45,451 nucleotides of DNA from Clostridiales bacterium (GTDB taxonomy: Bacteria > Bacillota > Clostridia > Lachnospirales > CAG-274), in NCBI GenBank assembly GCA_021201395.1, contig JAJQFB010000029.1, forward strand, positions 1 through 45,451, read 5' to 3'. Positions 13,320 through 45,451 of this stretch are shown here, piece by piece. The notes under the pieces were generated by a model that saw nothing but the letters and a program-made list of their open reading frames with translations, ran no database searches and was not told the DNA's origin. Within the stretch, counting starts at the first letter, position 1, and each line of letters begins with the position of its first letter. The position numbers were made by a program, and so were the translations under genes.

Positions 13320-13680
13320 TGTCCTGCGGCAAAGCTCTGAGAATCGCGGGGAAGCCGTCGGCCGTGCCTCGCGTGGCCGGTGGCCCCCCCGCCTGCCTTT
13401 TTGCTGCGTCAGGAGCAAAAAGGCAGGCAGCGGCTATGATTTAGTATATTTTATTGCAGTCCGCCTTTCAACCCCATCAGTTATAAGCTTTCTGTTCGGC
13501 AGGTTTTTTTAGGTGTGAGGTGCCGTCTGCCCTACCGATCGGCACCCGTGGGGTAGCACAAACCGAGGGAGATGTCAAGGGCTTCGCAAGTCCTCCGGAC
13601 CCTTGACATCTCCCTCGGTTTGTGCTGTTTAAAAGGTTTTGCGTTTGCCGTCGGGCAAACACCTCTTTTAACAATAGTTT
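13320..13680. repeat. GC-rich region of nested inverted repeats, including a 26-bp perfect palindrome arm
   Basis: This convergent intergenic stretch holds at least four hairpins. They are CCTGCCTTTTTGCT/AGCAAAAAGGCAGG (13392-13405/13414-13427, perfect 14 bp); GGTGCC/GGCACC (13519-13546), overlapping an alternative CTACC/GGTAG (13532-13556); a 26-bp perfect stem (13556-13581/13600-13625); and GTTTGCC/GGCAAAC (13643-13660) enclosed by TTAAAAG/CTTTTAA (13629-13671). The 18-base tip of the 26-bp stem divides into CTT-cgc-AAG and TCC-tcc-GGA, so the whole can fold as a T shape. The stretch is visibly richer in G+C than its neighbours. It is not a plain terminator, because no T-run adjoins the long stem. 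A mobile palindromic element or a structured RNA are the main possibilities. Confidence 0.7.
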
Positions 13681-13755
13681 ATCCTCAGCCCCAAAACTTT
13701 TTCGCCGAATTTCAGTCTGAAAAACACATCATAAATCCATTTTCGGAAATTGAAA

Positions 13756-13800
13756 GGACTGCCTGCACAAATTGAAAATATCAATTCCGCAGCAGCCCCG
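13756..13800 (-). terminator. Hairpin downstream of htrA, related to the one after purD
   Basis: CTGCCTGC (13759-13766) pairs with GCAGCAG (13789-13795) with a bulge, and an inner AATTGA/TCAATT stem is present. The 18-base core AAATTGAAAATATCAATT (13769-13786) recurs exactly at 26951-26968 after purD. It lacks a strong T-run on the minus strand, so termination is likely but not certain. Confidence 0.5.
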
Positions 13801-13853
13801 TTTTATTTGTTTTATTTATTTTTATTTTATCTTATCTTATATGTTTTATGGTT

Positions 13854-15155
13854 TTAATATGTTTCGGGAGGATAGAGAGTTACGCTGAGTGTAAACTGTT
13901 TTCCGTTTCTCAGTCCCGATACTTCAACAACCTGGTTTGCACTGCACTCCTTAACCTGTTCCACAAGCTGATCGGGGCCGAATATGGACTCTCCGTTAAA
14001 GGAGGTTATTATGTCCCCTGTCTGAATCCCCGCAAGGTAAGCGTTTCCGCCCTCGGTTACGTCTACAACGTATGCCCCTGCCGATGTTCCGAGCTGCGAA
14101 ACATATTCCTCAGGCACAGCCTGAACCGTTACGCCGAGAGTAGGCGTACTTTCACCTGTGGCAAGCTTCTCAAAAATAGGCGCCGCAACATTTGAGGTTA
14201 TGCTGTAGCCTATTCCCTCAACCGTTTCGCTTGAAAACTTCGCTGTGTTTATACCTATAACCTCGCCCTTAGAGTTAAAGAGGGGGCCGCCGGAGTTGCC
14301 TGCATTTATGGCTGCGTCTGTCTGTATTACCGTCAGGGTCTTCCCCTGTATGTTTATCTTCTTTGAAATAGCACTTACAATACCCGATGTAGCCGTTATT
14401 CCCTCGCCTAAAGCGTTGCCTATGGCTATAACCGGGTCTCCGCTTGAAACCGAATCGGAATCTCCGAAAGTTGCTACTACAACCTCATTTATACCTGCCG
14501 CCTTAAGGTCTGCCGCCGACACTGAAACAACCGCCAAATCGGCATTTTGATCCGTTCCCACAACAACTCCTGCAAGAGGCGTATCCTCGTTAAATGAAAC
14601 AGTAATGTCCGTAGCTCCGCTTATAACATGGTTATTTGTGGCTATATAGACATTGTATGCGTCCTTTGCGAATATGAAGCCGGAACCGCTTCCGTCAACC
14701 TCCTGAGTGCCGAAAAACCAGTCCTGAGTGTAGGCCACAGTGCTTATGGCTACTACAGAGGGTTTAACCGCCTTTATAATGGCAATCCTGTTGAGAGAGG
14801 CCTCATAAATACTCTCCGCCGACATAGACATTGCGTCCGCTTCTTCGCCCTTGTCAAACAGACCGCCGTCCTCTGAACCGTAATCTTCCGTTTCGTCCCC
14901 GCCCTCGGCTCCTGTGCTTGCGGGAACAAAATCCTCTGCTTTAATACCGCTTACAACCCCTGAGGCCGTAAGCCCGAAGCTTATGGAACCCAAACAAAGT
15001 GAAAAAATAAGTATACAGATAATAAAATTTCTGTAATAATGGCTCTTTTTAACGGGTGCTGCTTCCTGTGCTCCTGTGTTTGTTTCAGAGCTGTCAAAAT
15101 ATCTGTTTATGGTTTCGTCGGGAGTTCTGTTTTCATTCGTTTCAAATTCATTCAT
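13854..15155 (-). CDS. Membrane-anchored HtrA-type serine protease (second of two)
   Basis: The 433-residue protein has a cytoplasmic N-terminus, one membrane segment (about 43-65) and a trypsin-like domain with the full triad: His176 in ATNNHVISG, Asp206 in NADLAVV and Ser288 in NAGNSGGPLF. One PDZ domain follows (about 340-433, with AGIQTGDIITSFNG). It acts outside the membrane in protein quality control. The start is set at ATG 15155, with GAGGGTGGAG upstream; a TTG 24 bases earlier overlaps the preceding gene. It lies 20 bases behind the other HtrA and is probably co-transcribed. The linker between membrane and protease is strongly acidic. Confidence 0.93.
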   Translation of the reverse strand: MNEFETNENRTPDETINRYFDSSETNTGAQEAAPVKKSHYYRNFIICILIFSLCLGSISFGLTASGVVSGIKAEDFVPASTGAEGGDETEDYGSEDGGLFDKGEEADAMSMSAESIYEASLNRIAIIKAVKPSVVAISTVAYTQDWFFGTQEVDGSGSGFIFAKDAYNVYIATNNHVISGATDITVSFNEDTPLAGVVVGTDQNADLAVVSVSAADLKAAGINEVVVATFGDSDSVSSGDPVIAIGNALGEGITATSGIVSAISKKINIQGKTLTVIQTDAAINAGNSGGPLFNSKGEVIGINTAKFSSETVEGIGYSITSNVAAPIFEKLATGESTPTLGVTVQAVPEEYVSQLGTSAGAYVVDVTEGGNAYLAGIQTGDIITSFNGESIFGPDQLVEQVKECSANQVVEVSGLRNGKQFTLSVTLYPPETY

Positions 15156-16822: not shown

Positions 16823-16990
16823 TTAAGGAAACGATGATTAATTCGCCGAAGCAGATTTGCCGCCGAGCGTTTCGAGTGTGAGGAAAGCATTTGAGGGCGT
16901 AGCCGGAGCCTACGTTGAAAATGCGTGACGAAGCAATCGGAACGCTCTGCGGTGAAGCTGCGATGAGCTAATTAATCAGCGGTTCCTTAA
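16823..16990 (+). mobile_element. 168-bp MITE-like palindromic repeat, copy 1
   Basis: The element starts TTAAGGAAACGATGATTAATT and its other end is the near-perfect inverse, AATTAATCAGCGGTTCCTTAA. The two halves pair along most of their length, so it folds as one long hairpin. It encodes no protein. A copy in the opposite orientation, also exactly 168 bp and about 88% identical, lies at 23395-23562. If the element proper is GGAA...TTCC, the flanking TTAA on both sides would be a 4-base target duplication. Its right end lies 5 bases past the stop codon of the UPF0210 gene. Confidence 0.85.
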
Positions 16991-23394: not shown

Positions 23395-23562
23395 TTAAGG
23401 AATCGCTGATTAATTAGCTCATCGCAGCTTCGCCACCGATTTTTCCGATTGCTTCGTCACGCATTTTCAACGTAGGCTACGGCTACGCCCTCAAATGCCT
23501 TCCTCACACTCGAAAAAATCTGCGGCAAATCTGCTTCGGCGAATTAATCATCGCTTCCTTAA
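23395..23562 (-). mobile_element. 168-bp MITE-like palindromic repeat, copy 2 (inverted)
   Basis: Read on the minus strand, this copy matches copy 1 (16823-16990) end to end at the same length. Differences cluster in one stem section: copy 1 has GCG opposite CGC (16867-16869/16943-16945), while copy 2 has TTT opposite AAA on its own strand (23516-23518/23440-23442). Pairing is kept in both. The repeat enters the 3' end of the phosphoesterase gene, supplying its last codons and stop. The flanks end in TTAA on both sides. Confidence 0.85.
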
Positions 23563-24217
23563 CCTCTGTTTTATTCATTATCCCCTCAGCGTCCACACCC
23601 GGGTGAGTAACAATTATCCTTGCGGTTTGCTCAACAAAATCGGAGTCAAGCCCTGTTTTTTTGCATATTGCCTCTATGCTATAGCCTTTATCCATAAGCT
23701 TCATGATAAACTCTATGTTTTTAAGAAGATTTTTATCGGGCTTTTCTGTGGAAAACTCTTTTAAAAGCTCAATCCTCTTTACGGAATACTCCCCTTTATT
23801 TATATCCATTACCGCCATAGTAACAGGCAGGTTAAACCGCCTCCTGCCGCAGCTTCCCGGATTCAGCCAAAGCCGATTATCTCTAATCTCCTCATAATAT
23901 TTGTGAGAATGGCCGAAAACCACAACATCAGCCTTTAAATCTTCGGGAATATCTTTCTTATTGTGAACAAGAAAAAACCTGACCCCCGAAAGCTCAAACT
24001 CAAGCTTTAAGGGTATTTCCTCCACCCACAGGCCGCTGTCGCAGTTTCCCCTAACCGCAAACAAGGGTGCGCCCTTTTTCATAACCGCCCTTATTTCCTC
24101 CAAAATTTTCGGGGAACAAATATCTCCCCCGTGAATTACGGCACCGCAGTCTCTTATAATTTCGGCTGCCTCCTGTCTTAACAAATTGTGTGTGTCCGAT
24201 ATAACCGCCGTTTTCAT
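23504..24217 (-). CDS. YfcE-type metallophosphoesterase with C-terminal extension
   Basis: The first 160 residues or so are the YfcE/MJ0936 phosphodiesterase domain, with metal ligands visible in AVISDTHN (Asp8, His10), VIHGGDIC, AVRGNCD, FFLVHN and VVFGHSHKYYEE plus LNPGSCG. Members hydrolyse phosphodiesters or cyclic nucleotides in the cytoplasm. A C-terminal helical extension (about 165-218) contains GYSIEAICKKTGLDSDFVEQ and VTHPGVDAEGIM, a helix-turn-helix-like form seen in Clostridia homologues. The final 19 residues, from VKEAMINS onward, are encoded by the inserted MITE-like repeat, so the native C-terminus probably ended near Asn-Lys-Thr-Glu. Substrate is unknown. Confidence 0.85.
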   Translation of the reverse strand: MKTAVISDTHNLLRQEAAEIIRDCGAVIHGGDICSPKILEEIRAVMKKGAPLFAVRGNCDSGLWVEEIPLKLEFELSGVRFFLVHNKKDIPEDLKADVVVFGHSHKYYEEIRDNRLWLNPGSCGRRRFNLPVTMAVMDINKGEYSVKRIELLKEFSTEKPDKNLLKNIEFIMKLMDKGYSIEAICKKTGLDSDFVEQTARIIVTHPGVDAEGIMNKTEVKEAMINSPKQICRRFFRV

Positions 24218-45022: not shown

Positions 45023-45412
45023 ATGGGGCGTATATGTTTCAGAGTGCTTTTATTTTTTGTGCCTGTGACTGTTGTTTTCATAGGTATATTTTTTTGCCTG
45101 CGGGGCTGTCAAAGAGCTTCCGTTCCGAAAGAAAATTTTGAAGGCTTTAAAATTTCCTATGAGGCTTTGGCTGAAATAATAGAGATTTCGGAGCTTCGTC
45201 AAACGGATTTCGGCGAGGCCGTAGGCGTTTATATGCTTGAAAACAATTTTTTTGAGGAAAAAGAGGACTGCAGCGAGGAGGAAATCCGGAAATTTTTCAG
45301 TGAATACGACAATATAAAATCGGGTTTAAACGAAAAAGAGCTTAGTGCCTTCAGCGGTTTAATAAATAAAATATTCGAGGATTTAAAGACCTTTCCCCTA
45401 AGGAAACGATGA
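45023..45412 (+). CDS. Membrane-anchored protein of unknown function, truncated at a repeat end
   Basis: The 129-residue frame has an N-terminal membrane segment (about 6-27, ending FFCLRGCQ) followed by an acidic helical domain with FGEAVGVYMLENNFFEEKED and LSAFSGLINKIFEDLKTF. The last residues, Arg-Lys-Arg, and the stop are contributed by TAAGGAAACGATGATTAAT (45399-45417), identical to the terminus of the MITE-like repeat. The original protein was probably longer. The N-terminal part recalls membrane-anchored cell-wall peptidases of Lachnospiraceae, but no catalytic domain is present here, so this is only a guess. Confidence 0.6.
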   Translation: MGRICFRVLLFFVPVTVVFIGIFFCLRGCQRASVPKENFEGFKISYEALAEIIEISELRQTDFGEAVGVYMLENNFFEEKEDCSEEEIRKFFSEYDNIKSGLNEKELSAFSGLINKIFEDLKTFPLRKR

Positions 45413-45417
45413 TTAAT
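45399..45417 (+). repeat. Isolated terminus of the MITE-like repeat
   Basis: TAAGGAAACGATGATTAAT is identical over 19 bases to the left end of copy 1 (16824-16842). The bases beyond it, GAGGATTTTCAGGCG, do not match the inside of either full copy. It may be a shortened or related element extending past the window edge. Confidence 0.7.
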
Positions 45418-45451
45418 GAGGATTTTCAGGCGATGTAAATGGTGATACACA

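Follow-up and report, generated by a model that had tools for sequence, protein, structure and literature searches.

Compensatory changes in the hairpin of a putative IS5-type MITE family from Clostridiales point to a selected fold, probably acting as RNA

Bacterial MITEs with stable hairpin transcripts are already known (PMC2229807, PMC10969869). Correia/NEMIS and ERIC, for example, are MITEs of 100-200 bp, often intergenic, whose transcripts fold into long hairpins; some of these transcripts are RNase III substrates or affect the stability of mRNA (PMC2229807, PMC10969869). Conservation of RNA secondary structure between genera has been reported for the CIR repeats of Caulobacter and Brucella (PMC2229807), and IStrons unite a group I intron and an IS, i.e., a DNA transposon with a structured RNA (PMC4227781). 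Regarding target sites, E. coli IS5 duplicates YTAR (PMC10359306). The hairpins of bacterial MITEs are usually regarded as a by-product of their inverted repeats, and the family described here, with hundreds of copies in many species, provides enough independent substitutions to test this view.

The window (the whole stretch of DNA analysed, 45,451 nucleotides) is contig C16 of a fragmented Clostridiales assembly of 2.32 Mb in 138 contigs. It contains two inverted copies of a repeat, at 16823-16990 (+) and 23395-23562 (−), of equal length and 92% identical by blast, located as in the original prediction, which had put their identity at about 88%; the inverted repeat I1 covering both copies is 90% identical over 178 nt. 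Both stretches do measure 168 nt, as predicted, but the element itself is 160 bp (GGAANCGNTGATTAATT...TTCC, i.e., GGAA...TTCC), the outer 4 nt on each side being a direct target-site duplication (168 = 160 + 4 + 4). Terminal inverted repeats GGAANCG[AC]TGATTAATT are found at both ends, and the element is too short for a transposase gene and carries none. The end pattern occurs with 0 mismatches at exactly four places in the window, which are both ends of both copies (chance expectation 0.08); a fifth match, with 2 mismatches, lies at 45398. The fold spans nearly the whole length of both copies, with −45.7 kcal/mol for copy 1 folded as DNA vs −22.6 ± 3.3 for shuffles (z −7.0) and −76.8 kcal/mol for copy 2 folded as RNA vs −44.7 ± 4.3 (z −7.6), which, together with the end-pattern matches, confirms the common ends and the near full-length fold-back that had been noticed at the outset. 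The paired change that had also been noticed, GCG opposite CGC in copy 1 and TTT opposite AAA in copy 2, is exact (Table 1). Since GCG/CGC is found in the copies at C72:20750 and C89:19977 as well, and GCA/CGC in that at C94:13346, it is a subfamily change and not an isolated accident; taken alone, it is weak evidence, as a single block event could produce all three pairs.

Table 1. Coordinates of the two element copies and of the putative helper end in the window.
Feature	Position	Strand	Remark
Target-site duplication TTAA, 4 bp, left of copy 1	16823..16826	.	
MITE copy 1, 160 bp, GGAAACGATGATTAATT...AATTAATCAGCGGTTCC	16827..16986	+	Covariance model R1 147.1 bits on +
Target-site duplication TTAA, 4 bp, right of copy 1	16987..16990	.	
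Structured core of copy 1 without terminal repeats	16843..16970	+	R1 model
GCG, 5' arm of triple compensatory change	16867..16869	+	TTT in most copies
CGC, 3' arm of triple compensatory change	16943..16945	+	AAA in most copies
Target-site duplication TTAA, 4 bp, of copy 2	23395..23398	.	
MITE copy 2, 160 bp, orientation opposite to copy 1	23399..23558	−	R1 149.2 bits on −, only 31.7 on +
Target-site duplication TTAA, 4 bp, of copy 2	23559..23562	.	
CTAA, target-like tetramer adjoining helper IS end	45398..45401	.	
Right end of putative helper IS5-family element	45402..45451	+	50 nt identical to C101 end; contig stops inside

Copy 2 provides the last codons and the stop of an ORF (23504-24217, − strand) that enters it over 23504-23562, and several further copies of the MITE likewise provide gene ends, at fixed offsets. 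Elsewhere in the window, two direct repeats of 278 nt (1079-1356 and 1583-1860), 72% alike and 504 nt apart, lie inside ORF 44-2074.

In the genome as a whole, the end pattern TTAAGGAANCGNTGATTAATT gives 161 forward and 164 reverse matches vs 0 for a reversed-pattern control (3 mismatches allowed), and we estimate the number of copies at about 160; 65 near-full copies were extracted from the stretches around these matches. Flanking tetramers match within one copy and vary between copies (TTAA, CTAA, TTAG, CTAG, ATAG, TATG, CAAG). Among 86 copies from the genus, the duplication is perfect in 58 (TTAA 44, CTAA/TTAG 8, CTAG 1) and agrees at three of four positions in 20 more, with TTAA/YTAR as a consensus; both window copies have TTAA, itself palindromic, which makes them poorer evidence of duplication than the other copies are. 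Shortened versions of 53, 55, 73, 86, and 157 nt (duplications included) also exist, as do enlarged ones of 224-274 and about 450 nt, which result from a nested second repeat. This second repeat (CAGAAGTTTTGC...GCAAAACCGGGCTTGAAGCCCG...) was seen inside the copies at C22:21736-21960, C49:17723-17949, C57:3612-3838, C52:485-934, and C99:16674 of this genome, and is in tandem in C52. A pair of ends 3,063 nt apart on C49 was considered as one element and discarded, as these seem to be unrelated ends with host genes between them.

The joined flanks of ten copies were then searched in eight congeners for empty sites. Three sites are unoccupied there, namely C96:20852 (in G003, G004, and others), C124:3012 (in G003), and C48:23510 (in several), where the alignment crosses the insertion point without the element, the tetramer having diverged in some congeners; this shows that the element moves rather than sitting at fixed, shared positions. 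For either window copy, a strict empty site was not found among the eight congeners; the right flank of copy 1 is present in 8/8 of them without the element, beside the same gene, and its left flank is not syntenic. Fixed sites common to all relatives, which the original prediction had named as a finding that would speak against it, are contradicted by this absence, and two of its proposals, a MITE-like mobile repeat and TTAA as the target duplication, are borne out by the ends, the copy number, the matching but variable tetramers, and the unoccupied sites. In the intergenic region of C96:20852, congener G002 has a MITE copy of its own (G002:C114:53515-53681, L221), apparently on the opposite strand.

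Short (less than about 500 bp), devoid of a transposase gene, bounded by terminal inverted repeats, flanked by a target-site duplication, and dispersed in many copies, the two window repeats are, on these sequence features, copies of an IS5-type MITE. REP/REPIN sequences with their RAYT (palindromes of about 20-40 bp, no target duplication, Y1 transposase) were ruled out by the 160-bp length, the 4-bp duplications, and the DDE-type partner. Phages, plasmids, and viral contigs searched for the element gave no match, the viral search pattern being strict. Genus g7 has other MITEs of ~160 bp (also 235 and 262; L283, L277, L294, L286, L292). These share the IS5-type ends and also fold into long hairpins, but their interiors are apparently unrelated and they have no clear strand asymmetry.

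As for the source of the transposase, contig C101 of this genome encodes a truncated DDE transposase of 195 aa (NF033581 transpos_IS5_4, 181 bits for a cut-off of 140; also PF01609), and adjoining it is an IS right end, GGAAACGATGATTAATGAGGATTTTCAGG, whose first 16 bp are common to the MITE end. The same right end is found at the start of contig C113 and at the end of the window, a pattern that a multicopy IS would leave in an assembly unable to resolve it. The full-length transposase element with the same ends that the original prediction proposed to look for is intact among relatives in public genomes, as elements of 1.2 kb (L117, L120, L125, L126, L133, L135), but truncated in this genome, where no intact helper is assembled and only the C101 transposase and the IS ends at the C16 and C113 contig ends are found. 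Scored against NF033581 (cut-off 140), the L117 and L126 transposases reach 285 and 297 bits; the intact elements end in GGAAAC[AG]CTGATTAATT, with duplications CTAG, TTAG, CTAA, and TTAA. Another IS5 transposase, L103 in G018, is truncated, with ends that are not readable. An IS5-family element is the likely helper, and from the common ends we infer that the MITE is mobilised in trans by its transposase. IS1182, first suspected as the helper from contig C115, was displaced by the IS5 evidence. The IS1182-like copy on C115 (L093, G000:C115 about 13400-14165) is decayed, with a similar left end, GGAAACACTGATTTAATTGC, and has a 73-nt deletion derivative of the MITE inserted in it; a PF13751 search revealed no intact IS1182.

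Compensatory change was assessed on alignment A1, made with MAFFT from 55 copies of the genus, terminal repeats left out. The structure is paired in 97.0% of the cells vs 37-46% for slid structures, 22/37 stem pairs change on both sides, and there are 116 double-change cells vs 27.9 ± 4.5 when shuffled. As related copies inflate such counts, an R-scape-like tree test was applied, whose null reassigns each branch's substitutions among the columns; the tree was built on 126-128 columns, with parsimony used for ancestral states. For the genus, it counts 32 pair-keeping double changes on one branch vs a null mean of 2.75 (maximum 9), and a fraction paired of 0.970 vs 0.782 (maximum 0.822). When neighbouring pairs are merged, 25-26 events are left vs 2.5-2.7 expected (maximum 9); 20-21 of them are single pairs, along with two blocks of three and three of two. 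Over all column pairs of the genus alignment alone, no pair reaches E<0.05, and restricting the test to the stated structure gives 3/37 significant pairs. Alignment A3, which spans seven genera and, being fitted to the covariance model, is biased towards its structure, has 71 double changes vs 3.9 and 14/35 individually significant pairs. The compensatory changes are not a coincidence: the pairing is selected. The initial proposal that the hairpin itself is under selection thus holds above a null that preserves phylogeny, and the covariation check suggested with it gave pooled counts above that null but no significant single pairs in the all-pairs genus test.

The covariance model R1 was built on A1, i.e., on one genus, and contains no terminal repeat. 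It matches (E<=0.001) in at least 20/48 genomes and at least 7/11 genera of the bacterial family, these counts being lower bounds with 72 candidates scored per genome; matches in other genera go down to E 1e-20, on one strand. The terminal sequence is GGCAATACCGCATAATT in copies from G018, G065, and G025 and GGAAACACCGCATAATT, or a close variant of it, in copies from G010 and G032, again flanked by 4-bp duplications; copies in genus g10 (G024, G031) and in G029 have ends like those of the window copies. The core (~128 nt) is a long, interrupted hairpin whose asymmetric internal loop (5' AAGGAA, 3' TTGAC) is near-invariant: helix columns turn over, with the commonest base at 0.33-0.79, beside loop columns at 0.90-1.00 (A41.97, G43.90, G44.95, A45 1.0, A46 1.0; T95 1.0, G96.97, A97.98, C98.92). 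These comparisons show that compensatory change has preserved the core in no fewer than seven genera, whereas the terminal repeats have changed. By way of suggestion only, the antiparallel GA/GA in the loop could form tandem sheared G.A pairs. No Rfam 15 covariance model matches above its gathering score, and within the two copies of the window there is no match on the element at all. Many G024 copies (L189, L191, L193) have a 68-nt apical insertion with TTGTAACTTTGC...GCAAAGTTACAA, and many G024 contigs begin or end at this MITE.

The two strands of the element are not equivalent. The + strand is the more stable in 81/82 copies of the genus (−66 vs −50 kcal/mol) and in 59/61 copies across all seven groups; copies share ancestry, so that these are not independent tests, and more weight attaches to the fact that all seven groups agree. 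The window copies score 147-149 bits with R1 on the + strand of the element and 28-32 on the other. On internal branches of the tree, Watson-Crick pairs became G.U 16 times vs A.C 2 times (p 0.0013), and on terminal branches 32 vs 19 times (p 0.09), two ratios that differ only marginally (Fisher p 0.043). The strand bias and the excess of G.U over A.C point to RNA rather than to a symmetric DNA palindrome, a choice that the original prediction had left open, without proving it; single-stranded DNA also tolerates G.T, which counts against the RNA reading. Pairing is selected strand-specifically, and apparently more strongly on internal branches, i.e., in the lineages leaving copies, than on terminal ones; marginal as it is, this pattern is what one would expect from selection on a + strand RNA, relaxed after insertion. 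With genes called by a simple ORF rule, 64/65 copies are intergenic, and no orientation bias relative to genes is found (22 plus vs 20 minus codirectional, 9 and 8 in the two mixed arrangements). Because this bias is absent, the data do not support an effect in cis on the mRNA at each insertion site, and selection would probably act via the propagation or the tolerance of the element.

The best explanation, to which we assign a probability of roughly 0.7, is a MITE mobilised by an IS5 transposase and endowed with a selected structured core, the + strand fold of which would act as RNA. The MITE would be moved in trans by the IS5-family transposase; transcripts reading through a copy would contain the + strand fold, its internal loop probably being bound, or processed, by a protein, and the folded RNA would favour the element's spread or tolerance. 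The hairpin would probably be of no service to each host locus, since orientation bias is absent and private mutations break pairs more freely. We put forward only tentatively, well short of even odds, the bolder idea of a class of mobile structured RNAs on IS5-type MITEs, whose core would be a functional RNA required for spread and preserved through several changes of terminal repeats, its internal loop binding a protein or acting on the transposase or on the transposase mRNA.

Selection of the palindrome as DNA, for recognition by the transposase or a host factor or as a one-strand hairpin during replication, survives best among the alternatives and is, in our opinion, unlikely. It would suit a mobile element whose copies lie in both orientations without bias and whose ends and core fold jointly as one palindrome. 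A DNA cruciform is symmetric, however, a G.T on one strand being an A.C on the other, yet G.U is favoured on internal branches, the + strand is the more stable in all seven groups, and most of the fixed mismatches are G.U or, as judged by inspection, purine.purine on that strand. Furthermore, we know of no requirement for single-stranded hairpins in IS5, which has a DDE transposase.

Quite improbable is a mutational artefact without selection, in which one arm is copied onto the other, through arm conversion or through template switching at the quasipalindrome. Quasipalindromes are well known to undergo such copying, and adjacent pairs do sometimes change together here, as in the GCG/CGC triple, but most change blocks are single pairs. 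Such copying would, moreover, erase G.U and other mismatches alike, whereas the 47 changes from G.U to Watson-Crick balance the 48 in the other direction, so that nothing drives the palindrome towards perfection; A.C is avoided on internal branches, and one and the same loop is retained from genus to genus. We give hardly any credence to a short peptide as the cause of conservation: a frame of ~21 codons ending at the TGA of TTTGAC (MIFFSTRKKLANIVGAYVKRF in G018, ..IFSSVRKAFEGIAGAYVENA in G000) is open in several genera, but it was rejected on codon-position entropy (0.39, 0.57, and 0.48 for positions 1, 2, and 3, the second being the most variable), and conservation runs past the stop while substitutions follow pairing. 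Just as implausible is an ordinary MITE with a hairpin merely inherited from one ancestor and unselected pairing, for, usual as stable stem-loops are in bacterial MITE transcripts (PMC2229807, PMC10969869), the double changes and the fraction paired both lie far above the tree-preserving null.

The by-product view thus does not account for this family: the fold is selected, on one strand and apparently in propagating lineages. This opens the question of what an RNA structure does for a DNA transposon, and the covariance model can be used to recognise a repeat family at which assemblies of these genomes break.

Literature searches yielded no description of this MITE family. With the IS5 family (IS5 subgroup, NF033581), it has in common the like terminal repeat GGAA.C.CTGATTAATT and a 4-bp YTAR-like duplication, and a transposase and right end of that family are present in this genome; it differs in having no transposase and, as seen here, only about 16 bp in common with the IS right end. 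IStrons differ from this MITE, which has no ribozyme match (Rfam) and no transposase inside. CIR repeats have two arms, a linker, and a GANTC motif, whereas this MITE is a single long hairpin with target duplications. Correia/NEMIS and ERIC are unrelated to it in sequence and ends. As far as literature searches and Rfam show, what is new is the MITE family itself, the tree-tested covariation over seven genera, and the conserved core with its changing terminal repeats; compared with Correia/NEMIS and ERIC, this MITE stands out by its covariation across genera, its near-invariant internal loop, and its strand asymmetry, the last two new in the same sense.
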